From the IMG/VR virus record IMGVR_UViG_3300046535_001133, positions 1-42,326 of that record: a stretch of DNA of 42,326 nucleotides. One strand, written 5' to 3'. Source of the stretch: a virus. This document shows positions 3,958 through 21,432 of this stretch, piece by piece. The position numbers and the translations under genes were made by a program. The notes under the pieces are model-generated. The model was given only the letters and a program-made list of their open reading frames with translations, was not told where the DNA came from and searched no databases. Each line of letters opens with the position of its first letter. Position 1 is the first letter of the stretch.

Positions 3958-4870
3958 TGATCTCCGGATCCGAATCACCGAAGGCGAATTCACCCTCCGA
4001 CAATCCTCGGAGAAATCCTTCCAACTGTGTAAGAGGTATTATGGGTGGGAACGAATCGAAAACCTGGCTCCTGTCGCGATCCAATGGAATCTCATCTTTG
4101 GCACAGCAACTCACCTCTTCCTTCAAGAGCGCGGACGGGGCGTCGACATTCCCAAAGCGCTGGCTGCCGCCGAAAAGAGTCTTTCAGATGCAGTCAAGGG
4201 CAAGCTGGTGGGAGATGACGTAGGCCTGTACGAAGAACACCTCTTCATGCTTCGCAACATCGCCCCGGTCTACGACGCGTATTGGGGCGCGGATGATGCA
4301 CACGCGTTCATCCCACTCGGCCAAGAAATCAAAGGTCGGATCCCGGTCGGTGACCCACGCCACAAGGTCTTCTTGGTGTTCAAGACCGACAAGATCGTCA
4401 ACTACCTCGGTCAGCTCTGGCTCATCGACCACAAGACCATGCGGAAGAACGACGACCGGGAGTTCGCCAAGTACGAGATGGACATCCAACCCACAGCCTA
4501 CATCTACGGAGTCTCCAAAGTTCTGGGAATCCGCGTTGCAGGCATCATCATCGACGGGATCATCAAAACGAAGGTCCCCCAGTTCAGGCGAGAATCGTTC
4601 CTCCGGTCTGACGCCGAGCTGAAGGAGTTTGAGGAGGAATTCGTGGAGATGTGCCAAGAGATTGGTTGGCGGATGAAGAGGGTCCAAAACGGCGAGAACT
4701 GGAAAACCGTCTTCTACAAAAACACCGGTTCCTGCTTCCACTGGGGCAAAGCCTGTGCCATGTTGAAGCTCTGTAGCCGGGACACACCCGTCATGCGGAT
4801 GTACTACGAGAAGCGGGAACCCGACTACATGGACAACCCAAGCCTCCTGAACCAAGAGGAACCCAAATGA
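3935..4870 (+). CDS. PD-(D/E)XK nuclease of the RecB/Cas4 type with Fe-S cysteines
   Basis: The start is TTG 3935, six bases after GGAGG (3924-3928); no ATG fits. The 311-residue protein has the PD-(D/E)XK core: GTATH at 56-60, acidic E131, D152 (FKTDK) and IDHKT at 164-168, with D165 and K167 as the catalytic pair. A Q-x-x-x-Y motif follows (QPTAYIYG, 185-192). Four cysteines, C32 near the N-terminus and C267, C274 and C280 near the C-terminus, match the iron-sulfur staple of RecB/AddB and Cas4-type nucleases. It is expected to be a DNA exonuclease or end-processing enzyme. It probably works with the Sak4-like ATPase (5609) and SSB-like protein (6440) in phage recombination. Confidence 0.85.
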   Translation: MIDVQIGDDLRIRITEGEFTLRQSSEKSFQLCKRYYGWERIENLAPVAIQWNLIFGTATHLFLQERGRGVDIPKALAAAEKSLSDAVKGKLVGDDVGLYEEHLFMLRNIAPVYDAYWGADDAHAFIPLGQEIKGRIPVGDPRHKVFLVFKTDKIVNYLGQLWLIDHKTMRKNDDREFAKYEMDIQPTAYIYGVSKVLGIRVAGIIIDGIIKTKVPQFRRESFLRSDAELKEFEEEFVEMCQEIGWRMKRVQNGENWKTVFYKNTGSCFHWGKACAMLKLCSRDTPVMRMYYEKREPDYMDNPSLLNQEEPK

Positions 4871-5181
4871 ACCTTGTTGGTGCCAAGAATTTCCAAGTCC
4901 TGTCCGGTAAAATTCTGCTGGCCCCAGACCCGGACCTCGCCTGGTCGAAGGGCGGCATTTTCTTCCCGGACTCCATGAAGAAGAAGGCCGAATCCGGCCT
5001 ATGCGTCCAACACCAACCGTTGATTCTCGAGGAGGACCTAACCGGCAGACGGCTCCTCGTCGAAAAGTGGTTGTGGACCGAAATCGAACTTGAAGGTCAG
5101 CCGTTCCTCATTCTCGACGAACGGTCGGTCTTCGCAGTGCTTGAAACGGGGGACTTAACCCCCTCTCAGGAAGGAGCCTAG
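4867..5181 (+). CDS. GroES-like co-chaperonin
   Basis: The 104-residue product follows the GroES/Cpn10 plan. KILLAPDPDLAWSKGG at 15-30 leads into a GGIFFPDS segment (29-36), the place of the GroES mobile loop (GGIVLPDSA in typical GroES). A TEIELEG strand (71-77) and FLILDERSVFAVLE (80-93) match the C-terminal LIL-x-E-x-D-I-L-A-V-L-E of GroES. The middle is diverged. The start overlaps the nuclease stop as ATGA. Phage co-chaperonins such as T4 gp31 partner host GroEL to fold capsid protein. This one is much closer in length and motif to GroES. Whether it binds GroEL is inference. Confidence 0.7.
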   Translation: MNLVGAKNFQVLSGKILLAPDPDLAWSKGGIFFPDSMKKKAESGLCVQHQPLILEEDLTGRRLLVEKWLWTEIELEGQPFLILDERSVFAVLETGDLTPSQEGA

Positions 5182-6982: not shown

Positions 6983-6995
6983 GGAGGGCTAAGTG

Positions 6996-7601
6996 ATGCA
7001 CGTTACCCAAATGGGGGACAGGATACTGGTAGAAGAGCTCGAACGCCGCGGCTATCAGATCATTCCAGTGACAAGGGGCTCTTCACCTACTGTCCCAACT
7101 GTGGATACACCAGCCCCGGCTTCCACCACACTGGATATGCACGTCTTCGACAGTGGCGCAAAACGCTCCATGCTGAAGCCCCGCTACGATCTCGTTCCCG
7201 TGTTACCCCTCAAACGGCTTGCAGACCGGTACGCTCTTGGAGCGAAGGTGTACGGCGAATGGAACTGGCAGATGGGGCTGCCTGCTGGGGATACGTTGAA
7301 TCACATCATCGACCACTTGCTACGATGGAGCGATAATCTCAGGCACGGCAGAGCCTCAACCGACGATGACCTTGCAGCTGCAGCGTGGGGCTGCTTCACA
7401 CTCATGGCACTGGAGCCCACATATGACGCTTCACAAATGGATCGAGGCCCACGGGTTCAAGGGGGAATTGGTGCTGACCACAGTCGATCCCTGGATGCAC
7501 TCGGTGGCATCGGAAAACGAAGGCCTCCTGAACCAGTTCATGACGAACGCAGTGGATCACTTAGTGACGGATCTGGCAGTCCTAAAGGAGATGGCCGATG
7601 A
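6996..7601 (+). CDS. dATP/dGTP diphosphohydrolase-like protein (N-terminal domain type)
   Basis: ATG 6996 lies seven bases after GGAGGG (6983-6988); a GTG directly before it is less likely. Residues 51-140 or so match the phage dATP/dGTP diphosphohydrolase N-terminal family (PF18909-like). The matching segments are DSGAKRSMLKPRYDLVPV, then a YALGAKVYGEWNW segment, LNHIIDHLLRW and STDDDLAAAAWGCFTLMALE. Related MazZ-type enzymes cut (d)GTP to (d)GMP and pyrophosphate. The last 60 residues are low-complexity and coincide with a +1-frame gene at 7423-7620, so they may not be functional. The stop overlaps the queD ATG as ATGA. Its place at the head of the deazaguanine operon suggests nucleotide-pool control. 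Confidence 0.7.
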   Translation: MHVTQMGDRILVEELERRGYQIIPVTRGSSPTVPTVDTPAPASTTLDMHVFDSGAKRSMLKPRYDLVPVLPLKRLADRYALGAKVYGEWNWQMGLPAGDTLNHIIDHLLRWSDNLRHGRASTDDDLAAAAWGCFTLMALEPTYDASQMDRGPRVQGGIGADHSRSLDALGGIGKRRPPEPVHDERSGSLSDGSGSPKGDGR

Positions 7602-7620
7602 ACGTCGGAACAGAGGTTGA
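7423..7620 (+). CDS. 65-residue protein overlapping two genes in +1 frame
   Basis: ATG 7423 follows GGAG (7412-7415) with seven-base spacing. The frame runs to TGA 7618-7620, over the last third of the 6996 gene and the first 23 bases of queD. The product, starting MTLHKWIEAHGFKGE, has a balanced composition and predicted helices (NEGLLNQFMTNAVDHLVTDLAV), unlike the Gly/Ser/Arg-rich tail of the frame it overlaps. It therefore looks like the truly coding frame for this stretch. Either it is a separate overlapping gene or the C-terminal part of the 6996 product reached by a +1 frameshift. No family is recognised. Confidence 0.55.
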   Translation: MTLHKWIEAHGFKGELVLTTVDPWMHSVASENEGLLNQFMTNAVDHLVTDLAVLKEMADERRNRG

Positions 7621-7990
7621 GATTTGCATTGGGCATAGGCTGATGGACTACCTCGGCAAATGCGCCAACCCACACGGGCACAACTACCGGATCTGCGTCC
7701 AGGCGACGGGCAACATGAAGAAGCGAGACTACGGGATTCTCCTGGACTTCTCCGACTTGAAGGATGCTCTCAACAAAGTCCTCGCCCCGTTCGACCATGC
7801 GATGATGCTACGGGATGACGATCCGTTGGTCCCATTCCTCGTGGCTGAAGGCTCGAAGGTCGTGAAGATGGAACACAATCCAACCGCCGAGAACTTCGCA
7901 GAATTCATCAAGACCCAGCTCACCATGCTGCTTCCCATGGAGTGGAAGGTCCGGGTCTACGAAACCACGAAATCCTACGCAGAGGTGTAA
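7598..7990 (+). CDS. queD: 6-carboxytetrahydropterin synthase QueD
   Basis: QueD converts dihydroneopterin triphosphate (from FolE) to 6-carboxy-5,6,7,8-tetrahydropterin, step two of preQ0 synthesis. The 130-residue protein is of normal size for the PTPS/QueD fold. It shows the zinc ligands H13, H26 and H28 (HGH), catalytic C22 and the D66-H67 pair (FDHAMML). The NPTAENFAEFI helix and a C-terminal ET motif (VRVYETTKSY) are also present. AAAGGAG at 7584-7590 gives ideal spacing to ATG 7598, which overlaps the previous stop. The presence of catalytic Cys, QueE and QueC favours QueD over a biopterin-type PTPS. Confidence 0.93.
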   Translation: MNVGTEVEICIGHRLMDYLGKCANPHGHNYRICVQATGNMKKRDYGILLDFSDLKDALNKVLAPFDHAMMLRDDDPLVPFLVAEGSKVVKMEHNPTAENFAEFIKTQLTMLLPMEWKVRVYETTKSYAEV

Positions 7991-7992
7991 CA

Positions 7993-8379
7993 ATGTCTGA
8001 TGTCCAGTATCTCAACGAAGCTGACGCAATGGCCCTAGCCAACTCCCTGGGCTGCACTGCTGTCATGCCCTCCCCCTACCAGCTCCAGCTCGATCTCGAC
8101 CTCGAGAAGTTCCCCTGGGCCCTCGACCAGTACACCAAGATGCTGCCGACCGTCCAGAGCTGGCTGACGATCAAAGAGACTGATCGGTGGACCAGCAAGA
8201 GCGGAAGAGGCACCCACATCGTGCTGACTGCAGCCGAACCAATCGACTGGCACACGCGTCTCACTCTCCAAGTAATTCTGGGCAGTGACCCTGTCCGAGA
8301 GTTCCTGGCCCTCCGCACGATGCACGATCACGCCAAGGGCCTGTCCTACCTCTTCCGTCCACTGGAGCAGACAGTATGA
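7993..8379 (+). CDS. Unknown phage protein, possible primase-fold fragment
   Basis: ATG 7993 begins a 128-residue protein two bases after queD. It shows an acidic LQLDLDLEKF segment (about 33-42) and a SKSGRGTHIVLT segment (about 69-80). A RLTLQVILGSDPVREFLALRT segment and LSYLFRP near the end complete it. This order (acidic pair, SKSG-x-H-I box, LGSDP box, LFRP end) recurs in small phage proteins and loosely resembles the core of archaeo-eukaryotic primases. That relationship is a guess. It sits between queD and queE and overlaps queE by ATGA, so it is made with the pathway enzymes, but no step of the pathway is missing for it. Confidence 0.6.
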   Translation: MSDVQYLNEADAMALANSLGCTAVMPSPYQLQLDLDLEKFPWALDQYTKMLPTVQSWLTIKETDRWTSKSGRGTHIVLTAAEPIDWHTRLTLQVILGSDPVREFLALRTMHDHAKGLSYLFRPLEQTV

Positions 8380-9014
8380 ACTACCCAGTGGCAGAACGCT
8401 TCAAAGCCTTGCAAGGCGAAGGCGTCTACACAGGCGTCCCGATGGCCTTCATTCGCATGGTCGGGTGTAGCGTCGGCAAGAAGATCTGCACCTCCTGTGA
8501 CACAGACTTCGACACGATATACCCACATCTCGACGGAGGAACTTACAACCCGAAACAACTGCTTGAGTGGGTCGGGAACTACCGTCACCTCTGCGTTACT
8601 GGTGGTGAACCCATGATGCGAGACCTCATGCCATTGTGGGATGCGGCTGCAATGACTCCTGATCTCGTCTTCCACGTCGAGACCTCAGGCACGCAGGAAA
8701 ACGACCTCTTCGACTTTTCCGACTCTCCATTCCTCTGGATCTGTGTTTCACCCAAGCCCGGGTTCAAGGAAGAACTTGTCGCAAAGGCCGACGAAGTCAA
8801 AGTCATCTACGGCGGGCTCGGCAACGGTCCAGGCTGGCCAGGAATCGCAGATGCAATGAGATGGGCAGCGATGGGCAAAATCGTCTACCTCCAGCCCAGG
8901 AACAACCGAATAACACTGGACCAGAAGAACACCATGGAAGTGGTTGAGCTGGTGAAGAAGTTCCCCATGCTCCGCGCCTCGATCCAACTCCACAAAGTCC
9001 TGGGTGAAAGATGA
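8376..9014 (+). CDS. queE: 7-carboxy-7-deazaguanine synthase QueE (radical SAM)
   Basis: QueE rearranges 6-carboxytetrahydropterin to 7-carboxy-7-deazaguanine using S-adenosylmethionine and a 4Fe-4S cluster. The 212-residue protein starts with FKALQGEGVYTGVPMAFIR, a QueE hallmark. Cluster cysteines C31, C38 and C41 follow, then TGGEP at 75-79 for SAM binding. The end, SIQLHKVLG, matches the QueE C-terminus. The cluster loop is C-x6-C-x2-C rather than the usual radical SAM C-x3-C-x2-C or the long C-x14-C-x2-C loop known in some QueE. The start overlaps the previous stop as ATGA, and the end overlaps the next gene by four bases. Confidence 0.93.
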   Translation: MNYPVAERFKALQGEGVYTGVPMAFIRMVGCSVGKKICTSCDTDFDTIYPHLDGGTYNPKQLLEWVGNYRHLCVTGGEPMMRDLMPLWDAAAMTPDLVFHVETSGTQENDLFDFSDSPFLWICVSPKPGFKEELVAKADEVKVIYGGLGNGPGWPGIADAMRWAAMGKIVYLQPRNNRITLDQKNTMEVVELVKKFPMLRASIQLHKVLGER

Positions 9015-9316
9015 ACCGGCCAGTTCACGACATTCTCTACGCATTGGACCAGGGGAAGGCTCCTGGTCCATGTGCGTTCATCCAACACGGAACGGAAGAA
9101 GCCGGTTTCGAATACGAGTGCGTCTGCCCGTGGTGCGCACAGTCAGTTGGAGACCGGATCCCTTCTCCCACCCAGTTCACCTTCGGTGCGCTCCTAACCG
9201 AGCTGAAGAAGAAGATGAAAGACCACGTTCGAGTATGCACAGCAGACATGCGGAAGATGCGTGTATACGTCACCAAAACTCCGCTCGGGACGGATAGTGC
9301 CCCGAAGGTGCAATGA
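9011..9316 (+). CDS. Small putative zinc-binding protein in the preQ0 operon
   Basis: The 101-residue product contains C37-x-C39-x2-C42 (ECVCPWCAQSVG) and later H73-x3-C77 (DHVRVC), which together could form a C2HC zinc site. A Lys-rich helix (LLTELKKKMKDHVRV) lies between them. The first residues (MNRPVHDILYALDQGKAPGP) resemble no known motif. It overlaps queE by ATGA at its start and folE by four bases at its end, so it is locked between two pathway enzymes. It could help deliver the modification to DNA or be unrelated; the sequence does not decide. Confidence 0.6.
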   Translation: MNRPVHDILYALDQGKAPGPCAFIQHGTEEAGFEYECVCPWCAQSVGDRIPSPTQFTFGALLTELKKKMKDHVRVCTADMRKMRVYVTKTPLGTDSAPKVQ

Positions 9317-9855
9317 TGGACAAGAAGAAAATGGAAGCGGGAGTCAGACTTCTTCTCACAGGAATGGGAGTAGACCTTGCTGATCGTAACTACCGAGATA
9401 CGCCGGCTCGCGTTGCGAAAATGTACGTGGAACTGTTTTCTCCACGCAAGAATAACTTCGCCACATTCCCTGAAAAACACGATAGCATGGTTATCCTCCG
9501 TGGACATACAGTGCACGGTGTCTGCCCGCATCATCTCGTTCCAGTTGAAATGCGGGTGTACGTCTGTTACATTCCAGACAAAGAGATCCTTGGTCTCTCC
9601 AAGCTTGCACGAGTCGCTGAGCAGCCTCTTACCGGACCTGTCCTTCAAGAAACTTACACTGACACCGTCGCGGATATTCTCTATGCCCGAACAGGTGCAA
9701 AGGGAGTTGGTGTTGTTGTTGCAGGAAGGCATGGCTGTATGCGTCATCGTGGCATCAAATCTGAAGGAGATATTGTCACCTCTGCCATGAGAGGGCAGCT
9801 TCTCCTCAACTCTTCAGCTCGAGAGGAATTCCTTCGGTTGATCGGACGGGTTTGA
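9313..9855 (+). CDS. folE: GTP cyclohydrolase I
   Basis: FolE hydrolyses GTP to dihydroneopterin triphosphate, the first step of preQ0 (and folate) synthesis. The 180-residue protein has RDTPARVA at 28-35, and the zinc/active-site segment VCPHHLVPVEMRVYVCYIP with C71, H73 and H74. LGLSKLARVAEQPLTGPVLQ follows, then HGCMRHRGI with H140 and C142. These are all diagnostic of type I cyclohydrolase. The length is near the usual bacterial size without a regulatory N-terminus. ATG 9313 overlaps the previous stop; ATG 9316 is an alternative. Its place beside queD and queE and the absence of other folate genes point to preQ0 rather than folate. Confidence 0.95.
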   Translation: MMDKKKMEAGVRLLLTGMGVDLADRNYRDTPARVAKMYVELFSPRKNNFATFPEKHDSMVILRGHTVHGVCPHHLVPVEMRVYVCYIPDKEILGLSKLARVAEQPLTGPVLQETYTDTVADILYARTGAKGVGVVVAGRHGCMRHRGIKSEGDIVTSAMRGQLLLNSSAREEFLRLIGRV

Positions 9856-12272
9856 TGTCCGAAACCTACCCCGAAGACAACGGGAAACCCATCGAATGCA
9901 GGCTCTGTCCGCTTTACAACGCCCCAGGTATCGTTCCTGGAGAAGGCCCGAAAAATGCTAAGATCTTTCTCCTGGGAGAGGCCCCGGGTGAAACTGAAAT
10001 TCTCATCAACCGACCTTTTGTGGGCGGCGCTGGCCGCATACTTAATCGGTTGCTTGCTACTGTCAAGATTCAGCGATCCCAGACCTACATAACCAACGTC
10101 GTCAAGTGCAGACCGACGGTGATCAACCATGAAGGAAAACTCAAAGACCGGCCCCCGACGCCGACCGAGATCGAATGCTGCGCAAGGTTCCTTGTGGACG
10201 AACTTGAATCTGTCAAACCCAACGTCATCGTCGGACTTGGGGGAACAGCTCTCTTCGCTCTTAAAGACACCAACAAAATTGGACAACACCGAGGCGTCCC
10301 ATTCCCCACGTCGTTCGGCAAAGCGCTCTGTACGTATCACCCAGCCGGGCTCATGCGGCAACAGCAGCTCTTCCCACTCGCGATCCGAGACTTGGCTCTC
10401 GCGCTTAAGGAAGCAGAAAGCCCGGACCTCGTACGTCTTGAAGTCACATATAACCCTAACGCAAGCGCAGCGGGTAATGGCGTTGCTCTGCGACAGCGCG
10501 CTCGAGCTGCGGGATACGTCACCCTCGACTTGGAAACAACGGGACTCGACCCTCGCTACGATCAGATTCTCTGTTGCGGAGCTGGGACAGAACCACAAAA
10601 GGCTGAGTGTTACGCTTGGAACAGTGATAACGAGCGGCTCCTCCGAACTCTGTACGAGGATCCAACACTTGAAAAAGTCGGACAGAATTGCGAAGGTTTC
10701 GACTGGTGGTTCCTCCACGGCAAAGGCTGGCCGGAGGCTCCAGCCGGCAAGTCCTATGACACACTCCTCGCGTTTCATCTAACGAACTCCGACCTGCCGA
10801 AGGACCTTGGAACCTTGGGTGCGACGTTCACAGACATGGAGTATTGGAAGCATGAAGGGAAGAAAGCCTTCAAAGACGCGGAGCGAAGTGGAAACCTCTT
10901 CCTCTACAACTGCAAGGACATCGATGGAACAACACGATCGTACCTCTCCACAAAGAAACTCCTCCAGCAGTACGGGATGCTTGGGTTGTACTACAACAAC
11001 GTCATGCCCCTTCAACCGATTCTTCGACGAATGTCCAAAAGGGGAATCAAGAAGGATGTAGAGAAGGCCGCGAAGTGGTCTTTGGCGTTCAACATGGTGG
11101 CGGACCAGAAAGAACAGGTGCTCAGGGATGGACTCAACGCCCAAGACTTCTCCGTCAACTCCCCCAAACAGCTCATGCGACTCTTCTACGAGCAGCTTGG
11201 GCTTCCGATACAATACGTTCGTGACAAGGACAGAGGGAGCCGTCCAACCGTTAACGATGACGCAATGGAAGCGTTGGCCATCATTACCAACGACCCCATC
11301 TTTCACCTGGTTAATGAAATCAGGCAGTGCCGAAAATTTGCGTCTACTTACTGTGACGCTATCACTGATGAGGACGGTTATCTCCATCCGCGCTTTGGGT
11401 GTGCGAAGGCAGCGAACGGCCGACTCAACAGCTGGGACCCAAACGGACAGAACTGGCCCAACGACCTCCGAGAACTAGTCATCCCGGACAGTCCCGATCA
11501 CATCTTCCTAGCCTGTGACTGGAGTCAGATCGAGTGGAGGAACTCCATGATCCTCACTGCAGACCCAGCTGGGTTGGAGATGATGAAAGCAGGAGTAGAT
11601 AACCACTCCGTAACAGCTGCAGAGTGTTTCACAATCGACATCGGCCTGGTGAATGAAGAAGTTCCAGGCATCAATATGGCCTACCGACAAGCAGCAAAGT
11701 TCATCGTCTACGGACTAGGCTACGGTCGTGGGATCCGATCAATCGCAATGCAGCTGGGAAAGGATGAAGCATGGGTAGCGGCATTCGTGCAGAGGTACTT
11801 CGCGAAGTTTCACGTTTTCGCCGACGGCAGGAATCAATGGGAACAGTTCGTCCGGCACAACAACTATCTGAGAAATCCGTTCAGCCGGCGCCGGTGGTGG
11901 TACAGCATGCAGGTACCGGAGCTGTACAACTTCCTGCCCTCTTCGACCGCAGCGGACATGATGTATCTGGTCATTCCGAAAGTGGAATCCCAACTGCCCT
12001 CTGGAGCAACGCTTCGTCTGACCGTGCACGACGAGCTCGTTATTTGTTGTACTCGGGACGCGCAGACCGTCAAACAATCCGCGATGTGCTTGCAGGAAAA
12101 TATGAGTCGTATGTGGCCCGAGATCGTGGAAGCGTCCAACGACTCAGCAAAAATCAAACGGTACTACCCCCAAGGCTGGCACTGTCCTACAGACCTGTCG
12201 ATTGGTAACACCTGGAAGGACTGCAAGGATAAGAAGATCCAATACGAACTGAAGAAGGAGTACAACCTGTGA
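9855..12272 (+). CDS. Fusion of family 4-like uracil-DNA glycosylase, 3'-5' exonuclease and family A DNA polymerase
   Basis: This 805-residue replicase starts at ATG 9855, overlapping the folE stop. Residues about 14-185 form a family 4-like uracil-DNA glycosylase. It has cluster cysteines C15, C18, C85 and C108/C109, the GEAPGE motif (41-46), RPFVGGAGR and the HPAG motif (162-165). Residues about 220-370 form a DEDD exonuclease with D225 and E227 (LDLETTG), D283 and a YxxxD-like site. The polymerase has motif A (ACDWSQIEW, D555), motif B (RQAAKFIVYGLGYG, with K615 and Y619) and motif C (VHDE, 725-727). Tyr619 stands where E. coli Pol I has Phe762, as in T7 polymerase. Glycosylase-polymerase fusions are known in phage SPO1 and others. 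Both neighbours are coupled to it. Confidence 0.92.
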   Translation: MSETYPEDNGKPIECRLCPLYNAPGIVPGEGPKNAKIFLLGEAPGETEILINRPFVGGAGRILNRLLATVKIQRSQTYITNVVKCRPTVINHEGKLKDRPPTPTEIECCARFLVDELESVKPNVIVGLGGTALFALKDTNKIGQHRGVPFPTSFGKALCTYHPAGLMRQQQLFPLAIRDLALALKEAESPDLVRLEVTYNPNASAAGNGVALRQRARAAGYVTLDLETTGLDPRYDQILCCGAGTEPQKAECYAWNSDNERLLRTLYEDPTLEKVGQNCEGFDWWFLHGKGWPEAPAGKSYDTLLAFHLTNSDLPKDLGTLGATFTDMEYWKHEGKKAFKDAERSGNLFLYNCKDIDGTTRSYLSTKKLLQQYGMLGLYYNNVMPLQPILRRMSKRGIKKDVEKAAKWSLAFNMVADQKEQVLRDGLNAQDFSVNSPKQLMRLFYEQLGLPIQYVRDKDRGSRPTVNDDAMEALAIITNDPIFHLVNEIRQCRKFASTYCDAITDEDGYLHPRFGCAKAANGRLNSWDPNGQNWPNDLRELVIPDSPDHIFLACDWSQIEWRNSMILTADPAGLEMMKAGVDNHSVTAAECFTIDIGLVNEEVPGINMAYRQAAKFIVYGLGYGRGIRSIAMQLGKDEAWVAAFVQRYFAKFHVFADGRNQWEQFVRHNNYLRNPFSRRRWWYSMQVPELYNFLPSSTAADMMYLVIPKVESQLPSGATLRLTVHDELVICCTRDAQTVKQSAMCLQENMSRMWPEIVEASNDSAKIKRYYPQGWHCPTDLSIGNTWKDCKDKKIQYELKKEYNL

Positions 12273-13012
12273 AGCTCTCTGCAGAGATCCCAACGAAACA
12301 TCTGGAAGAGCTCAGCCCCTTGATGGACGCTGACTTCTCCCTTGCCCACCTGATTCTGGAGGACAAAATCTACGCCGAGTTCTACCTTCAACAGGCCAAG
12401 GCCGGCCGCATGGTGATCATGGATAACTCCATGCACGAACTCCCGGCAAGCCTCTCCGTTGGAGAGATTCTCGAGGCAGCTGACAGGACGAAGCCTTCGT
12501 TCGTCATTCCTCCTGACAAGCTCGGAGACGTGAAATTCACCTACGACCAATTCGAGATCCTCCGGAAACAAAACCTTCGGCACGGACATCGGCTCGCTGC
12601 AGTCCTCTGCGGATCAAACAGTGCTGAGCGTAGCATGTTCTTCACGAACGTCCGCGCTTACATCGACATGATCTGCTTCCCATACCGCGAGCCCCGTCTC
12701 ACCTGGTTCGATGAACTGTTGACCGCCATCCCAAAGCACGCAGGATGGCCGCCATACATCCACCTGCTCGGTGTGAACACGCTTGACGAACTCTCCGTCT
12801 GGAACTCCAAGCTCGACCTCGTCGGCTGGCCCCGGAACGGTCGAAGCGTCGACACAAACAAAATGGTCAAGTGGGGTCTGAAGAACAAACGACTGAACGC
12901 CCTGGACAGTCTCCGCGGGGCTGGCCCGTTGGACTTCAAAACCGAGATGGACCTCTCCCAGCGTCTCGACACCATCTACAACACAGCGTACATCCGGAAG
13001 TTTCTCGTTTAG
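12269..13012 (+). CDS. dpdA: DpdA-like TGT-fold DNA guanine transglycosylase (candidate)
   Basis: DpdA enzymes swap guanine in DNA for preQ0 or a relative. This 247-residue protein has the plan I associate with short phage DpdA proteins, which lack the zinc site of tRNA transglycosylases. VIMDNSMHELP (49-59) carries the likely substrate or nucleophile Asp52. PPDKLGD (81-87) has paired Asp residues, YIHLLGVNTLDEL (163-175) matches the beta strand with HLLG, and RSVDTN (192-197) has a late Asp. GTG 12269 lies after AAGGAG and overlaps the polymerase stop as GTGA. The full preQ0 pathway upstream strongly supports the call. Sequence similarity is from memory, so a different TIM-barrel enzyme is possible. 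Confidence 0.65.
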   Translation: MKLSAEIPTKHLEELSPLMDADFSLAHLILEDKIYAEFYLQQAKAGRMVIMDNSMHELPASLSVGEILEAADRTKPSFVIPPDKLGDVKFTYDQFEILRKQNLRHGHRLAAVLCGSNSAERSMFFTNVRAYIDMICFPYREPRLTWFDELLTAIPKHAGWPPYIHLLGVNTLDELSVWNSKLDLVGWPRNGRSVDTNKMVKWGLKNKRLNALDSLRGAGPLDFKTEMDLSQRLDTIYNTAYIRKFLV

Positions 13013-13024
13013 CGGGGTCATGGC

Positions 13025-14431
13025 GTGGCGGAGGACAAAAAGAAGATCGCACCCCTACAGCTAGGTCAGCAGATCAACCTGCTGATGTCTCAGCTCCAAG
13101 GGATTAGTGGGGATCGAACCCACGCATCGTACCAGCTGATTATTGACTACGTGAAGGCGATTCCGCCGGTCTCTCGGCCATCAGAACTTCACGCGTCCTT
13201 ACAGCGGGCGTTCAAACTAACGGCCAAAGAGGTCGATGCCGCGTTGGAGCATCGGAACCTGAATCTTCCCAAGGACTTCGAAACCTTCGTTCCAGAGAAC
13301 GGATGGCTCCATGACTACATCGAATACACGAGAAATACCGAGCCCCCCACTGTCTTCCACTTCTTTACTGGACTGGTCGCCATGGGGAGTGCACTGGCAC
13401 GTAATGTTAGTTTTAATCTCGGGTTCGGTCACATTTTCCCTAACATGTGCGTTATCCTGGTGGCTCCATCTGGCAAATGTCGAAAAACTTCTTGCTGTGA
13501 GCTTGGGGTTAAACTTTATCGGGCCGTTGGTGGCACTATCCTGGCTGATAAAATTACGCCAGAAGCTTTGGTCAATGCGTTCGAGGAGAAAGCAAGCGCC
13601 ACCGGCCTGATCTACGCAGGAGAACTAGCCCAGTTTCTCGGTAAACAAAAATACATGGAGGGGATGATCCCGCTGCTCACGCGGCTGTTTGATTGTCCGG
13701 ATGTATGGACAAGTGCGACGATAACGCGGAAGGAACTAACCCTGAAGAACGTTGCGTTCTCCATGCTGGGTGCATCTACCATGGACTGGCTCCGCACTGG
13801 CATCCCTGCCGACAGCTTTGGAGGCGGCTTTATGTCGAGATTCCTCTTCGTGGTGCAAGAGGAGACTCCCCGCAGCTTTCCAAGACCACCAGCTCTGCCC
13901 GATGCTTTGCGCAGCAAGCTCTTGAAGCGGCTTTTAGAGTTCTCGCACCTCAGGGGGAACTTCCAGATGACGCCCGCCGCAGGAAAATGGTACGACGAAT
14001 GGTACAATGGACAGTCCCTGAGAGGGATCGAGGAACGTCAGTTCAGTGGTTACTACGAACGGAAGCCCGCACACTTGATCCGCCTCAGCATGTTGCTGAC
14101 TCTATCCCAGCAATCCGACGCGCTGGTGATCGAGAAGACAACTCTTGAACGGGCACGAGACATCCTGGATTGGTTGGAGCTGATGCTCCCAGGCGCCTTC
14201 GAACAACTGTCCCAAACCACGATCGGAGAAGACCACGGGAGAATTCTTCGCCTGCTGAAGAAGAACAACGGCGAGATGCTACACTCGGACTTACTTCGAC
14301 GGGTCTCCGGCCGAATGAACGCACGGCAATTCAAAGACCTCATCGCAACACTCCGTGAAGCAAAACTCATCGACTTCGACACGAACAAACGCGTCTACTT
14401 CCTAACCGGAGAAGGATGGCAACATGGGTAG
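13025..14431 (+). CDS. DUF3987-like primase/helicase-associated ATPase
   Basis: The 468-residue protein uses GTG 13025 (no ATG in frame nearby; weak SD). From about 95 it follows the DUF3987 pattern. Segments in order are WLHDYIEYTRNTEPPTVFHF, an F-x-x-LVAMGSALARNV helix and HIFPNMCVILVAPSGKCRKTS, with a degenerate P-loop. DKITPEALVNAF and FCMLGASTMDWL-like strands follow, then GGGFMSRFLFVVQE. C-terminal helices (GRILRLLKKNNGEMLHSDLLRRV) look like a winged helix. DUF3987 proteins occur in phage replication modules as primase/helicase-like factors. It lies 12 bases after the DpdA-like gene and overlaps the next gene. No other helicase was found, so it may be the phage's replicative helicase or primase. 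Confidence 0.75.
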   Translation: MAEDKKKIAPLQLGQQINLLMSQLQGISGDRTHASYQLIIDYVKAIPPVSRPSELHASLQRAFKLTAKEVDAALEHRNLNLPKDFETFVPENGWLHDYIEYTRNTEPPTVFHFFTGLVAMGSALARNVSFNLGFGHIFPNMCVILVAPSGKCRKTSCCELGVKLYRAVGGTILADKITPEALVNAFEEKASATGLIYAGELAQFLGKQKYMEGMIPLLTRLFDCPDVWTSATITRKELTLKNVAFSMLGASTMDWLRTGIPADSFGGGFMSRFLFVVQEETPRSFPRPPALPDALRSKLLKRLLEFSHLRGNFQMTPAAGKWYDEWYNGQSLRGIEERQFSGYYERKPAHLIRLSMLLTLSQQSDALVIEKTTLERARDILDWLELMLPGAFEQLSQTTIGEDHGRILRLLKKNNGEMLHSDLLRRVSGRMNARQFKDLIATLREAKLIDFDTNKRVYFLTGEGWQHG

Positions 14432-15225: not shown

Positions 15226-15706
15226 CATCGTGAGTGGAATCGACGAATCCAACTTCTATCAACACCGCTGGCATTTCGGTGTGCTTGAGTACATAGAGAT
15301 GTGTAGTGCCCCGGATTCCTCTGGACTGGGGGAGGCAGGAGCGGATAAACTTAAGGAGTTCTTCCGCAAGGACCTTCCCCTCATTACCACGGCTATCGTA
15401 CCAGACCTCAAAGCCGGAGGCCTCAGTGGTCCCTGGTCCGTCAAAGTCTGGATCGGCATTGAGATGTATGGAAACAAATACGTCTGCGTGCTTCGAGTTC
15501 GCGATGTCAGTCCGCATCGAGAGTGGAATAAAAACGTCTGTTTCTCTGGTGAGCACCGTGGGGGTCTGCTGATCATTGAGGACCAGCTGAAGTTCCTTTA
15601 CGATTGCCAGAGTCAGCTGTTTCTCTGTGAACGGACTCCGTGAGGCGCCGGTATCCAGCCCCCCATGTCCGGCGTCCAAACAAACCAGGGGTTTCCGATT
15701 CTTCAT
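15110..15706 (-). CDS. N-acetylmuramoyl-L-alanine amidase (Amidase_3), endolysin
   Basis: This 198-residue zinc amidase cuts the bond between muramic acid and the peptide stem of the cell wall. It shows LDAGHGGLDTGA (about 10-21, first zinc His), a Glu in the ASRSPFTEKQLTL segment, VSIHLNADP (second zinc His) and AVLIEVGFVDS near the end (catalytic Glu). These are hallmarks of Amidase_3. No cell-wall-binding domain and no signal peptide are visible, so it needs a holin for export. The start overlaps the stop of the giant virion gene as ATGA. It is the last late gene, and its 3' end overlaps the converging 14824 gene by 116 bases. Confidence 0.9.
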   Translation of the reverse strand: MKNRKPLVCLDAGHGGLDTGASRSPFTEKQLTLAIVKELQLVLNDQQTPTVLTRETDVFIPLSMRTDIANSKHADVFVSIHLNADPDFDGPGTTEASGFEVWYDSRGNEGKVLAEELLKFIRSCLPQSRGIRGTTHLYVLKHTEMPAVLIEVGFVDSTHDVTLLSDPAVQRRLAQSIAWGIHSWWERADAPSGTSPSA

Positions 15707-18700
15707 TTGAATGTGCCTCCAGGCTGCGCTTCTGGTTTGGTGCTCGGGAGATTTAACAGCCGCTTGATGGCCTCGCCGAACTCCTCTTCCTTCAACGCAT
15801 TGTTGATGTCCCTCGCCGCACCCATTCCCGGAATGAACTGTGTGCCCATTGTTTTGAGGAACCGTCCAGCATCTAGCTTGGTGGTCAAGTCAGACATCCC
15901 TCTTTTGTTCCCGATGATCTGCGGACCGAACTTATCTCCCGTCGGATCAAAAGACTGCGCTGTCCGACCGTAGTCAATGTCCCCCTTCAACCCCATTGAC
16001 ACCGCAGCAGCTCCCTGCTTCAGCATCTGCACAGCTGGGCCACCTTGGTAGTCCATTGGGCTGAAGAACAACCACCTGCTGAGGTCCACCCCAAAGACTT
16101 CCTTGGCTGTGTAGTACATGGCTGCGTTCGCCGCAACCCACTGCGAGGTGGTCAACAACCGGTTGGAGAAGGATCCTCTCCCCCCAATCACGGGGTTGAT
16201 ACTCTTCAAGTAGTGGAAGTAGCCCCCACTCCAGGTCCCATACTGTCCGAAGAGCCGTCCGGGAGTCGACTGGAGAATTGTCATGGCATTCTCCCGACTG
16301 TACTGGAACTGGGTAAAGCGATGGAAGTTATCCGCGATCTCGTGTGCTGCGGCGGGAAGATTCTTCTCCTCGTTCAACAACCGGTTGACCGCCCCAATCA
16401 CGGGCCCGTTCTTCTCGTCCTGCAAATCCAGCTTGGACCGACGGACAAACGTCCCGAAGTCCATCTTCCCTTCTAAGAAGTCTGCCCCCTTGTCCATCGC
16501 CCGCATGTACTGGGCTTGATACGCAAGAACCCGGTTGAAGTCGTCCGTGTACTTAAAGAGAGTTGTCCCTTTCTGCAAAAACGAAACAATGCCCTTTCTC
16601 ATCAACCCAGCATTCCCGGACTTCGTGCTGAGGATGAAGTCCTGAATATCCCCGAAGGTCTGAGATAATGCATCACGAGGGATGACCCCTCGATCAATCA
16701 TCTCTTCCTGCAGCTTGGGATCTTTCAACCACTTGACTGCATAGCTAAACGCCTTGGCGGTGTACCCCGGTCCAGCAACTGGAAACGTCGTCTGGACCGT
16801 CTGCAGGAGGTTTCGCAGGACCAACCCGGTTCGCCACGCCATGTTCGCAGCGTAGTTCAGCCCCGTAGCGAACGACACATAATCCGTAATGTGCTCCGGC
16901 TTCACACTCTCCATCCCCAGCGTCTTAAACATCTTGTTGATGGATCGGGTGATGGCGATCGCGTGTTCATCCGGCATGTATCGAATGCTGTTCAAGTGAG
17001 TCTCGAACAGCTTGAAGAGATCCGGTGGAACTGAAGTCTCCATCTTCGCGTAGGCTTCCATCACCGCGGAGACCTTATCCCACGTTGGCATCATGTATTT
17101 TTCCTGGGCCATCATCCGCATGAGCCGACGACCCAGCACAAACCCATCCGTCTCCCGATCCGTTATCCGGATGTCTCCTGACAGAAAATCCCGCTGTAAG
17201 GTCCGGAACATCTTCGGAAGGCCTTGCCGTCCTCCAATCCAGGTTTTGAAGTCTCCGTTGTTCTTCCGGAGCTGTGGGAACTCTGCGAAGAACTCCCGCA
17301 TGTCATGGTCCGTCACCCCAAGATCCCCGAGGAACGTCCGGTAGGCCTGCTCCAGTTCATCGGCCGATTTAATCAGCCGGGTCGGAGTCTTTGATCCCCG
17401 AACAAAGTCCGCCGTGTCCTTCCCAGCCATCCGGGTCTCGAACAACAGCTGCGCCTGTTCCCGCTCGGACTTGGTGTACTGGTTCTTCCACTGGTTGAGA
17501 ATCGTGTAGGGCGAAGCCAGGGCGCCTTCCACATCTGCCTTTGCGTGCTGGAGGTTCCGCCAAGAGGTCCAGAACGGGACGCCAGATGCAGCTTCGATCT
17601 TCTTGAAGATTTCGTTCGGGATCTGCAGCTTCGGCAGGAACCAGGCCGGGAAGTCCTCTCCACTCCTCTTCGGTGGTGGGACCAAGCTCGTCCCCGGACT
17701 CGGCACGTCTGTCGGCGGGATGCTTGACCCACCTCCCGCAAGATCCATCGGCTCCGCGTTCCCCGGTTCAAACGTTGAATGAGGTGCAAACTCCACATCC
17801 TCCGGCCAGTGGATATAGTCTTCCAAACTATGGTCAGTCGGATCGAAGTCTTTCGCTGCACCCATAATCCGGCTGAACAACGCCTGCTTCATCTGCGGGT
17901 CGTAGACGCGGAACCGGCCTAGTGAATCCTCCTGGAGCTTTCCAAGCTCCCACTCATCCTTCATCCGGTTCTTCCGGAGGAACGAATACACCAAAGCGCT
18001 TTCGGGGTCTCGCCCCTTCAACACATCCAACCCATTCGGCAGATCCTGGAGCTTCGAAACAAACTCTGCCGGCGTGTCTGCAGAAAGCCCTGTCGCCTCC
18101 AACCCCGGCCGGATCTGATTATAAACCTGCTTGACAGCCGTTGGGTTGTAGACTGCAACCGGCTTTCCTCCATTCGCACCAAACCCGACCTTCTCCGTCG
18201 AAAGGTCCGACATGGCGAATGTTCCTTCCGGCAAGCCTGCTTGTTTCTCCACTGCCCGAATCGTCTCGGTCAGCGCCTCAGGCTTCGAGGTCCAAACATG
18301 GACCAACGGGCGCTTTCCTCCGATCAACTCCTGCATCGCCAGGTCTTGCGCATCGACTCCCGAGAACTGGGAAGAATCGACATCCGGATCGAAGCTACGG
18401 TACCAGCCCATCTTCCAGCTGGTCTCCAACGGACTCTCCAACTTCGGTCCAACATCAGACAGGTGGATTCGGCCGAGGTGCTCTGCAGCCTCGAGTTGGT
18501 AATCAAAGTACTTCTCGACTCCCGCAACCTGATCTCGAAGGATCCCGCCCTTGCCCTGTGGGATGAAAATGAACCCCTTATCCGATGCTTCCTTCCGCAG
18601 CGCGTCCAACGGAACCATGTGGGGCTCGAACTGACTCAGTTCCCGCAGGGTCCACTCCGGCTGCACCAGATCATTGGCGGTGTGCGAGTATTCAGATGCA

Positions 18701-21432
18701 CGAACCCGAACCTTCGTTGACGGGTCGATCCCCTTCTTCAACATGATCCGGGCTGTGTCCCTTGCACTGATCAACTCCGGGATGTCCTTCGTCGCCTGGT
18801 CTAAATACAAACTGCGCGGCTGCACCAGGGACGGATTCTTCGCCGTTGAACTCGGGATTCGATACTGCGGTGTATCGATGTGTGTGAGTCCCTTTCCTTG
18901 TGTGCGCGCCTGGGCCGTAATCTCCCCATCCACCTTCACCAGCTGGATCTCGGACGCCTGCCTCGGTATCTCACGCGTCTCAAGCGTAATCGGCGTTGCG
19001 ACCTTGTCCTTCGATCCGGCCCACAACGGCGCAGCGTATTGTTCATCCCGCATCTTCTTCGGGACATACCCAGCCCCAAAGCTCAGCGGGTTGTTGTACG
19101 TCAGCTCCACCTTCGGGGATGTAACAGCAGCGTGAGTAACCGAAGAGCCTTCGCCCCCAGTCACCTCCCCCGTCCACTTATTCCGCCTGACTGGGTCCCC
19201 TTCTTCTTGCACCACTCGAACCAGTCGGGCAGTCGCTTTCGGACCCAACGACGTCTCCAACGGCTTCCCACTGGGATTCGGAGGACCATAAACCGGTTGT
19301 CCAACACGCCTTCGTTCAAGCGTCGGTTTGTCTGTAGCGCCAGCATAGCCTTCAGAGAACTTAGGACTATGCTGCCGAACCTCAACTGAGTCGATCGGAC
19401 CACCTTCCAGCCTCTGCCCAAACTGCGTTGGGGTTTGAATCCGCTGGACTTGGGGGACAGAAAGCGTCACTGACCCATCCGGATGAACAAACCCTCTTAC
19501 CGCATGTCCGAGATCCGCCTCCGGGTCGACCTTCTCAAAGAACTCGTTCCGGTAGATGTTATTATCCGCCGTTGCTCCAGACGCCTCGACCGCCAACGCG
19601 TTCTGCTGGTTATACACCAGGAACCGCCGTTCCGACCCATCCGGGTGTGGCGCGAGCACAATCCCCGTATCCGGCTTCCGGTTAACGTCAACCACATACA
19701 TCAACCGCTCACGAGGCACATGTTCGATGGTTCCAGTGGCAGTCTCGACAGGCACCGTCCCTGTCGGAAGCGGAGCTTTCACCGCAGGAGTCTTCGGAAG
19801 GCCTCGGCCCGGCAGCGGCTCCAACACATCCACTGTAGCAGGCTCGGGGTTCACCACAGATGGGTTCACCACCCTCGCCGGCAGGCCGCTCTGGAAGATC
19901 TTCTCCAACTCGGCCGGGCTTCTCTCCGAAGTGGGAATTCGAGGGGTCGGAGCTGGATTGGGAAGTGTGGTAGGAAGTGTGGTGGTAAGTGTGTTAGTCC
20001 CCTCGCCTGCTATCTTGCCCTCACGGGTAGGATTTCCATTTGCGTCGACGATCCGAACCCTCGTTCCAGCCGGTGGCGTTGTCCCCAACTCGGAGATGGA
20101 TCCAGTTGGAGCACTTCCCGGCAGATCCTTTGGATCCAGGACGATGTTTCCTTTGGCATCCTTCCCGAACATGATGTTTCGGAAGCGGTTCCAGGTTCCG
20201 ACCGAGTGGGCGTTAAACTCACCCAGCTTGATATCCGCTCCCTGCTCGGACAGTTCCACCAGCCTCGCGCGAAGCCGAATTGCCGCTTGTCCGAACTGCG
20301 CCGTTGTATCTCCCTTAACGGATCTGATTGACAGCGGGAATCGTTGGCCGTTGATCGTGGCAACCAGCTGTAGGCCGTAATTCGGATCAGTGTTGTAGAG
20401 GTGAGGGTTCCCTACGATCGGGGGCTCTTGCGGAAGCAGCTTCCCGAAGACTGACTCCAACCGCTTCTGCGCCTGGAGCACCAACGGAGTGTTCTTCAGC
20501 CCTGGGTCATCAGCTGCAGCCTTCACCACAGCTTCCGCAACGCGCGTATCCCTGTTCGAGCCCGCCCGCAGCTCCGTCAGCATCCCTTGGGCAACCTTTG
20601 GATGCACGCCGAGCGTATCAGCCAGGGTCGTCTGCATCTTATTCGAGGCAGCTACCCCAAGCTCATCTTTCCAGCTCCGAAGAAACAGCGGCGCTGTAAT
20701 CAGCGCAGTAGCTCCAGCGATCGTCGCGTTCTGTGCGACCATTGCCGCTCGGCTCTGTCCAGGTTCCAAATGGGCAAACGCCGACATCCCACCACCAGCG
20801 ACAGTATTCGCGGTCAGCTCCCGGAGCGTCCTGCTCGACAGGGTCATCCCCTTCGTGGCAGAAATAATCGCTGGACCCTCTGCAGCTCCGACCTTCGTCA
20901 ACCCAGCCAGCGCAGAACCGGCCTTTTGAAACGGAATCGAGGAGACGGCAGACCCAGCCATCGTCGCGCCTGTTTCCGCAGCCCCAACCACCGCATCCGG
21001 TTGGATCTGCTTCGAGGCGATCCGGATCATCTCCCCAGGAGCAGTCGGCAGAAGATCAGCTACACCAGCCATGGTGTTCCGAATCATATCTGCAGCCCGG
21101 AACGTCGAAGGACGACGGGCAAGATTCGCGCGGGCCTGAGCCAGTGTCTTGTCCTCCATGTCCTTCAGATCGTCGGACAAAAACATGCTCATCGGAGAAG
21201 TAAGGCCTTTGGCGATACTCACCGCGAAGAGATGGGCCCAGCCCATATCCTCGTCCATGTCCTTCACCTGCTGCTGAGGAGTCTTCTTCGGTGGAGGAGG
21301 AGGCTTCTCTGGACCAGTCGATCCTTCCAGTTGAGCAAGCAGACTCTCAGCAGACGGTGGACCAGGTGGCGGTGCTGCCGTTGGAGAAGGCGTCTCCAAC
21401 TGACGTAGAAGATCCGCGGCGTTTTGCTGCAT
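15703..21432 (-). CDS. Giant (1909-residue) internal virion / DNA-ejection protein
   Basis: This is the largest gene of the window. The N-terminus is Pro-rich (SPTAAPPPGPPSAESLLAQLE, then a run of prolines), followed by Ala/Gly-rich helices with hydrophobic stretches around 200-260. The middle third is rich in Thr, Pro and Gly with beta-like segments. The C-terminal 700 residues are long helical segments (for example LLQTVQTTFPVAGPGYTAK and WLKDPKLQEEMIDRGVI) and aromatic patches (QFQYSRENAMTILQS). The size, lack of enzymatic motif and place just before the lysin and after two other large virion genes fit the ejection proteins that podoviruses carry inside the capsid. A hidden enzymatic domain cannot be excluded. 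Confidence 0.75.
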   Translation of the reverse strand: MQQNAADLLRQLETPSPTAAPPPGPPSAESLLAQLEGSTGPEKPPPPPKKTPQQQVKDMDEDMGWAHLFAVSIAKGLTSPMSMFLSDDLKDMEDKTLAQARANLARRPSTFRAADMIRNTMAGVADLLPTAPGEMIRIASKQIQPDAVVGAAETGATMAGSAVSSIPFQKAGSALAGLTKVGAAEGPAIISATKGMTLSSRTLRELTANTVAGGGMSAFAHLEPGQSRAAMVAQNATIAGATALITAPLFLRSWKDELGVAASNKMQTTLADTLGVHPKVAQGMLTELRAGSNRDTRVAEAVVKAAADDPGLKNTPLVLQAQKRLESVFGKLLPQEPPIVGNPHLYNTDPNYGLQLVATINGQRFPLSIRSVKGDTTAQFGQAAIRLRARLVELSEQGADIKLGEFNAHSVGTWNRFRNIMFGKDAKGNIVLDPKDLPGSAPTGSISELGTTPPAGTRVRIVDANGNPTREGKIAGEGTNTLTTTLPTTLPNPAPTPRIPTSERSPAELEKIFQSGLPARVVNPSVVNPEPATVDVLEPLPGRGLPKTPAVKAPLPTGTVPVETATGTIEHVPRERLMYVVDVNRKPDTGIVLAPHPDGSERRFLVYNQQNALAVEASGATADNNIYRNEFFEKVDPEADLGHAVRGFVHPDGSVTLSVPQVQRIQTPTQFGQRLEGGPIDSVEVRQHSPKFSEGYAGATDKPTLERRRVGQPVYGPPNPSGKPLETSLGPKATARLVRVVQEEGDPVRRNKWTGEVTGGEGSSVTHAAVTSPKVELTYNNPLSFGAGYVPKKMRDEQYAAPLWAGSKDKVATPITLETREIPRQASEIQLVKVDGEITAQARTQGKGLTHIDTPQYRIPSSTAKNPSLVQPRSLYLDQATKDIPELISARDTARIMLKKGIDPSTKVRVRASEYSHTANDLVQPEWTLRELSQFEPHMVPLDALRKEASDKGFIFIPQGKGGILRDQVAGVEKYFDYQLEAAEHLGRIHLSDVGPKLESPLETSWKMGWYRSFDPDVDSSQFSGVDAQDLAMQELIGGKRPLVHVWTSKPEALTETIRAVEKQAGLPEGTFAMSDLSTEKVGFGANGGKPVAVYNPTAVKQVYNQIRPGLEATGLSADTPAEFVSKLQDLPNGLDVLKGRDPESALVYSFLRKNRMKDEWELGKLQEDSLGRFRVYDPQMKQALFSRIMGAAKDFDPTDHSLEDYIHWPEDVEFAPHSTFEPGNAEPMDLAGGGSSIPPTDVPSPGTSLVPPPKRSGEDFPAWFLPKLQIPNEIFKKIEAASGVPFWTSWRNLQHAKADVEGALASPYTILNQWKNQYTKSEREQAQLLFETRMAGKDTADFVRGSKTPTRLIKSADELEQAYRTFLGDLGVTDHDMREFFAEFPQLRKNNGDFKTWIGGRQGLPKMFRTLQRDFLSGDIRITDRETDGFVLGRRLMRMMAQEKYMMPTWDKVSAVMEAYAKMETSVPPDLFKLFETHLNSIRYMPDEHAIAITRSINKMFKTLGMESVKPEHITDYVSFATGLNYAANMAWRTGLVLRNLLQTVQTTFPVAGPGYTAKAFSYAVKWLKDPKLQEEMIDRGVIPRDALSQTFGDIQDFILSTKSGNAGLMRKGIVSFLQKGTTLFKYTDDFNRVLAYQAQYMRAMDKGADFLEGKMDFGTFVRRSKLDLQDEKNGPVIGAVNRLLNEEKNLPAAAHEIADNFHRFTQFQYSRENAMTILQSTPGRLFGQYGTWSGGYFHYLKSINPVIGGRGSFSNRLLTTSQWVAANAAMYYTAKEVFGVDLSRWLFFSPMDYQGGPAVQMLKQGAAAVSMGLKGDIDYGRTAQSFDPTGDKFGPQIIGNKRGMSDLTTKLDAGRFLKTMGTQFIPGMGAARDINNALKEEEFGEAIKRLLNLPSTKPEAQPGGTFK

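Follow-up and report, generated by a model that had tools for sequence, protein, structure and literature searches.

Known Guanine Transglycosylases

The enzymes closest to the protein described here are DpdA1, represented by Enterobacteria phage 9g (317 aa), DpdA2, represented by Vibrio phage nt-1 (464 aa), the bacterial DNA preQ0 insertase DpdA (PDB 7ui4, 436 residues), and TGT. Cui et al. 2023 (NAR 51:9214; reference 13 of PMC12783734) are said to have named a further type, DpdA3, that permits complete replacement of dG, and the abstract of that work reportedly argues for insertion after replication. FolE, QueD, QueE, QueC, and DpdA were described as the minimal gene set for dPreQ0, and Campylobacter phages were placed among the modified phages without a DpdA (Hutinet 2019, PMC6884629). 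Replacement of dG by dADG is reported to reach 100% in the Campylobacter phages CP220 and CPt10 (PMC8306585). The TGT of Z. mobilis uses Asp280 as its nucleophile and Asp102 as its base (PMC6165067), and the exchanged base is contacted by Asp102, Asp156, Gln203, Gly230, and Leu231 (PMC5395182).

The Transglycosylase Gene and Its Locus

The window analyzed here is the whole stretch of 42,326 nucleotides of the IMG/VR virus record IMGVR_UViG_3300046535_001133. An ORF at 12269–13012 (+) encodes a 247 aa protein, most likely a DpdA-like DNA-guanine transglycosylase, a reading that draws on the ORF, an AlphaFold2 model, Foldseek and VIA-align matches, and a family alignment. The ORF is real and intact, and the features that the first-pass annotation observed in it are confirmed. 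Its GTG start codon (12269–12271) shares bases with the TGA stop codon of the preceding polymerase gene (12270–12272), giving a GTGA overlap, and the sequence reads a good Shine-Dalgarno motif, AAGGAG (12255–12260, +), within the 3′-end of polA at a spacing of 8 nt from the GTG. The polymerase is a family A DNA polymerase with an N-terminal UDG-superfamily domain (9852–12272, +; Pfam DNA_pol_A 1.4e-44, UDG 1.2e-30). The next downstream gene in the replication operon encodes a DUF3987/phage primase-helicase-like protein (13025–14431, +; PF13148 1.7e-15; phrog_14296 DNA primase 1.4e-38).

The same record carries a complete set of preQ0 genes, all on the plus strand: FolE (GTP cyclohydrolase I, the first step of preQ0 synthesis; 9313–9855, Pfam PF01227 1.3e-41), QueD (6-carboxytetrahydropterin synthase; 7598–7990, Pfam PF01242 7.5e-27, PHROG QueD-like 5.9e-24), QueE (8376–9014, PHROG 2076 QueE-like radical SAM 1.1e-21), and QueC (preQ0 synthase; 855–1598, Pfam PF06508 5.3e-63, PHROG 1550 6.7e-62). 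QueF, amidotransferase, and formyltransferase genes were not seen among the window ORFs scanned. The DpdA1, DpdA2, and short-family profiles described below revealed no second transglycosylase over the record.

Several other genes of the window were recorded. Just upstream of QueD, 6993–7601 encodes a dATP/dGTP diphosphohydrolase N-terminal domain (PF18909, 4e-12; phrog_801), and its product could act on dGTP pools. A small GroES-like protein (4867–5181; phrog_3188, E 3e-4) is encoded amid replication and recombination genes. On the structural strand, a 1909-aa ORF (15703–21432, −) had no Pfam or PHROG match, and it is followed by an S74-peptidase-bearing protein at 22985–25126.

Predicted Structure

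The AlphaFold2 model of the window protein, built with the family alignment, had a pLDDT of 90.8 and a pTM of 0.89. A best match to a TGT barrel was taken as the mark of the TGT/DpdA superfamily fold, and this is what the model gave. In Foldseek against the PDB, the first two ranks were TGTs (E 3.6e-6 and 6.3e-6), the third was the bacterial DpdA 7ui4 (E 8e-6), and all of the first five were TGT or DpdA. A best match to some other TIM barrel, which would have contradicted the first-pass annotation by its own standard, was thus not what the search gave. A second look at the Foldseek matches with VIA-align placed TGTs exclusively in the top 50 (Z 16.6–17.5, rmsd about 3, about 220 residues), the best match reaching Z 17.5 with 219 of the 247 residues aligned. 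Matches of the model in BFVD included Cellulophaga phage phiST, other phage proteins, and the DpdA2 of Vibrio phage nt-1 (E 1.3e-4). Non-TGT TIM barrels (KGPDC and pyruvate kinase) ranked below TGT and DpdA in Foldseek, and such an assignment would leave the company of preQ0 genes unexplained.

Among sequence searches, the family profile found 7ui4 alone below E 0.01 in the PDB sequences (E 0.0023 and 4e-4), with HLLG and SxD aligned. The window protein by itself gave no match in Pfam and NCBIfam or in a phmmer search of the PDB sequences. Two PHROG families of unknown function matched it weakly, and one of them, phrog_19058, matched all 44 members of the aligned short family. The structure matches, the profile match to 7ui4, and FolE, QueD, QueE, and QueC in the record together bear out the earlier reading of a DpdA-like transglycosylase with a TGT fold.

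Active Site and the Position of Cys114

The four Asp-containing boxes that had been pointed out in the protein are VIMDNS (49–54), PPDKLGD (81–87), HLLG (165–168), and RSVDTN (192–197). They did not arise by chance, as D52, N53, P82, D83, V112, H165–G168, D195, and T196 are invariant in an alignment of 44 sequences, in which the relatives share 23–28% identity with the window protein. The order of D52, D83, and D195 is that of the E. coli TGT motifs. Residues were mapped to TGT by motif order, strand ends of the model, and profile alignments, not by superposed coordinates; on this basis D195 corresponds to Asp280, D52 to Asp102, D83 to Asp156, and C114 to Gln203, with the HLLG loop as a further equivalent. 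The protein thus has counterparts of the two catalytic Asp residues and of a base-reading Asp, and from the aligned sequences we assign D195 as the putative nucleophile, D52 as the putative general acid/base, and D83 as the putative base-reading residue.

The base-reading Gln is replaced. Among 81 aligned proteins, 75 have Gln at this position, five have His (Bacillus and Weizmannia phages among them), and the window protein alone has Cys (codon 12608–12610). The equivalent of Gln203 is a specificity residue and not a defining catalytic one; Cys at 114 may shift activity or base specificity.

C114 and C136 are the only cysteines of the window protein, and a motif check found no C-x-C-x2-C...H zinc site in it. 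The first-pass annotation was right about this absence, which is however not distinctive: the E. coli TGT has the motif after the nucleophile, whereas none of the 44 aligned family members and none of the nine DpdA1/DpdA2 proteins checked has it. Phage DpdAs generally share this lack of a zinc site.

A Widespread Family of Short Phage DpdAs

A tblastn search against deposited phages gave 24 records, all below 60% identity to the window protein. Among them were Flavobacterium phage immuto (E 3e-8), whose protein is deposited as DNA guanine transglycosylase DpdA, and the Campylobacter CP220-type phages (CP220 gp056, E 8e-6); others were Weizmannia phage Youna2 and Bacillus phages. LDNS, PD, HLLG, and SxDT were common to all tblastn relatives compared. 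In IMG/VR, pattern scans with the window protein alone or with its PolA found no close relative, and a scan with a five-sequence alignment confirmed at least 450 relatives. The family looks viral, because no more than nine loci turned up among about 85,000 prokaryote genomes scanned, most of them on short contigs that belong to metagenome-assembled genomes. In the fetched set, complete members mostly measure about 250–280 aa, which puts the window protein at the short end of the range.

The preQ0 genes almost always accompany the family. In the fetched DNA of 82 family loci, many of them truncated, QueC was found in 64, QueD in 60, QueE in 58, and FolE in 49. About 20 of the 82 loci have a formyltransferase-like gene (e.g., L001:8948–9475) and QueF together with the transglycosylase, which suggests preQ1-derived or formylated bases in those phages. 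DUF6610 (PF20314) matched 15 of the 44 family members weakly in Pfam (best E 5e-5) and may be a further DpdA-like family. Homologues in the Bacillus phages BSTP5, BSTP10, and BSTP12 are deposited as integrase/recombinase, polynucleotide kinase, or NadR, labels that look like misannotations.

No relative of the window protein exceeds 29–30% identity. The tree gives the window protein a long branch (length 4.1) and places it outside a core clade (support 98/98) whose 43 sequences include those of CP220 and immuto. We are unsure of its exact position among the outer lineages, because long branches meet there. The window protein is a real, very divergent, and probably active member of a widespread family of short phage DpdAs. 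Three features make it of modest interest: Cys in place of Gln where the base would be read, the overlap with polA, and the connection of the family with complete guanine replacement.

Relation to DpdA1, DpdA2, Bacterial DpdA, and TGT

Three profiles were compared: DpdA1 (9g and five others), DpdA2 (nt-1 and four others), and the short family. As controls, the DpdA1 profile recovered 9g at 2e-134 and the DpdA2 profile nt-1 at 5e-179. Neither matched the proteins of the window, immuto, CP220, Youna2, BSP7, or StAshley. The short-family profile matched all six and neither 9g nor nt-1; its E values were about 1e-59 to 5e-59 for the window protein (positions 1–260 of 262), which is itself included in the profile, 1e-90 for CP220, and 1e-115 for immuto. 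The tblastn matches to immuto and CP220 are independent of the profile. Because the three profiles separate it from DpdA1 and DpdA2, the short family is a sequence family of its own. In profile–profile comparison, DpdA2 reached a probability of 77%, an improvement on hhalign alignments of the family to single TGT, DpdA1, and DpdA2 sequences, and the DpdA1 scores were weak.

Each described system shares some traits with the window protein and differs in others. The DpdA1 of 9g has the same order of D, H-x-x-G, and D-S/T motifs, no zinc site, and adjoining replication genes, but it is larger and its profile does not detect the window protein. The DpdA2 of nt-1 resembles it in the profile–profile comparison and in the fold match in BFVD, but belongs to a class of about 400–460 aa, is nearly twice as long, and has a profile that misses it. 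The bacterial DpdA 7ui4 is the third-best Foldseek match with HLLG...SxD aligned, but it has 436 residues against 247 and 11% identity. TGT has the barrel over about 220 residues and the two catalytic Asp residues, whereas the window protein is without the zinc domain, has 13% identity, and stands in a phage replication context. The nearest likeness is to CP220 gp056 and the immuto DpdA, with which it shares one profile family, size class, invariant residues, and the company of preQ0 genes; it differs from them by its place outside the core clade, by C for Q at 114, by being the shortest of the near-full-length members, and by lying directly downstream of PolA.

The enzyme is therefore not a new kind, as the short phage DpdA family is already known from other phages. 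The suggestion that the 247-residue form might be a distinct subfamily holds for the short family, which is separate in sequence from DpdA1 and DpdA2; the 247-residue form itself is not a new subfamily, since the family is uniformly short (about 250–280 aa), has hundreds of members, and includes one deposited as DpdA. We take the short family, including the window protein, probably to be the DpdA3 of Cui et al. 2023.

Association with PolA

The distance between PolA and the transglycosylase is bimodal where PolA was seen. The genes overlap or lie within 27 nt in the window, Youna2, BSP7, StAshley, L111, and L112, whereas PolA is about 550 nt away in L080 and L105 and 2–4 kb away in the Flavobacterium type. 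In the core clade, PolA is kilobases off or there is none nearby. In the window and in L080 the transglycosylase gene follows PolA, whereas in the others, including the Bacillus, Weizmannia, and Brevundimonas phages, it lies upstream. In 9g, the DpdA1 gene also adjoins clamp and polymerase genes. PolAs with an N-terminal UDG-superfamily domain occur next to the transglycosylase in divergent lineages (the window, L080:6776–9430, L111:6705–9419, and L099:6765–9341), and the PolAs of the Bacillus and Weizmannia phages are shorter (about 670 aa).

Recurring proximity to PolA with changing order would fit shared expression and perhaps functional coupling. The first-pass annotation called the enzyme coupled to the polymerase; of this, the gene order and the stop/start overlap are confirmed, and any coupling to replication beyond them is one that we infer. 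Insertion of the modified base during or right after replication is a guess from gene order.

Proposed Mechanism and Alternatives

Most likely, the product of the gene is a minimal TGT barrel without zinc that replaces guanine in phage DNA with a free 7-deazaguanine base. FolE, QueD, QueE, and QueC of the same virus would make preQ0 from GTP, and the enzyme would be translated with and after PolA. It would flip out a dG, presumably in DNA and not in tRNA, and D195 would attack C1′ to form a covalent enzyme–DNA intermediate with release of guanine. PreQ0, deprotonated by D52 and read by D83 and the HLLG loop, would then re-form the glycosidic bond. The product would be dPreQ0 in phage DNA, protecting it against host restriction enzymes. 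As no gene for QueF, an amidotransferase, or a formyltransferase appeared, dPreQ0 and not a later derivative is the predicted base; the record may be a fragment, from which later pathway enzymes may be missing.

The exchange might instead take place at the nucleotide level, where the enzyme would swap the base in dGMP or in some other free deoxynucleotide, a kinase would make the triphosphate, and the adjacent PolA would incorporate it. This would explain the complete replacement of dG in CP220. Also in its favor are the neighboring PolA genes of divergent lineages, the modeled structure, which consists of the barrel without a zinc domain, and an earlier proposal of a polymerase route in Campylobacter phages (PMC6884629). 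In 10 of the 54 non-redundant loci (L002, L003, L004, L010, L016, L034, L049, L080, L111, and L112), CP220 included, the gene directly next to the transglycosylase is thymidylate/deoxynucleoside-kinase-like, with weak and diverse Pfam matches, which keeps the hypothesis alive for some members. However, no kinase gene was found in the window, and the abutting kinases may serve dTMP only. To our knowledge, all characterized TGT and DpdA enzymes act on polynucleotides, and the insertion after replication that Cui et al. 2023 reportedly argue for speaks against this route as well. The DpdA of phage 9g modifies plasmid DNA (PMC6884629), and we regard the nucleotide-level route as very unlikely. A wider proposal, to which we give a small chance, is that the short-family members next to PolA, including that of the window, exchange G at the fork or make a modified deoxynucleotide for PolA, so that all dG is replaced, and that the C114 variant takes a base other than preQ0.

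Since the structures most similar to the model are tRNA TGTs and preQ0 feeds queuosine, the enzyme could modify tRNA as TGT does, with phage-made preQ0 tuning host translation. We consider this highly improbable: the gene sits in a replication operon, and the DNA of CP220, in which the three profiles detected the short-family member as the only TGT-like protein, is fully modified. In TGTs, moreover, the zinc site and the barrel scaffold tRNA binding (PMC6165067), and the window protein is without that site. The long branch and the Cys at 114, unique among the aligned proteins, could also mean that the protein is a degenerate or respecified paralogue and has lost guanine exchange. Little credence can be given to this, because it retains every catalytic Asp as well as HLLG and SxDT, the ORF is intact with a strong Shine-Dalgarno motif, and no other short-family member was found in the record, where an intact preQ0 gene set accompanies the gene; the Bacillus and Weizmannia phages with His also vary at this position. 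Exchange of guanine in DNA by a TGT-barrel enzyme is thus the reading that we prefer.

Implications

In an uncharacterized virus with a complete preQ0 pathway, the window enzyme would perform the step of insertion into DNA. Most family loci in deposited phage records are labeled "hypothetical protein". CP220 and CPt10 both encode short-family members, and the short family is a candidate enzyme for the Campylobacter phages that were listed without a DpdA. With its 247 residues, the window protein comes near the minimum for the fold and would be a useful subject for structural and biochemical work. With hundreds of loci carrying it, the compact zinc-free transglycosylase barrel appears to be a common viral means of guanine modification.
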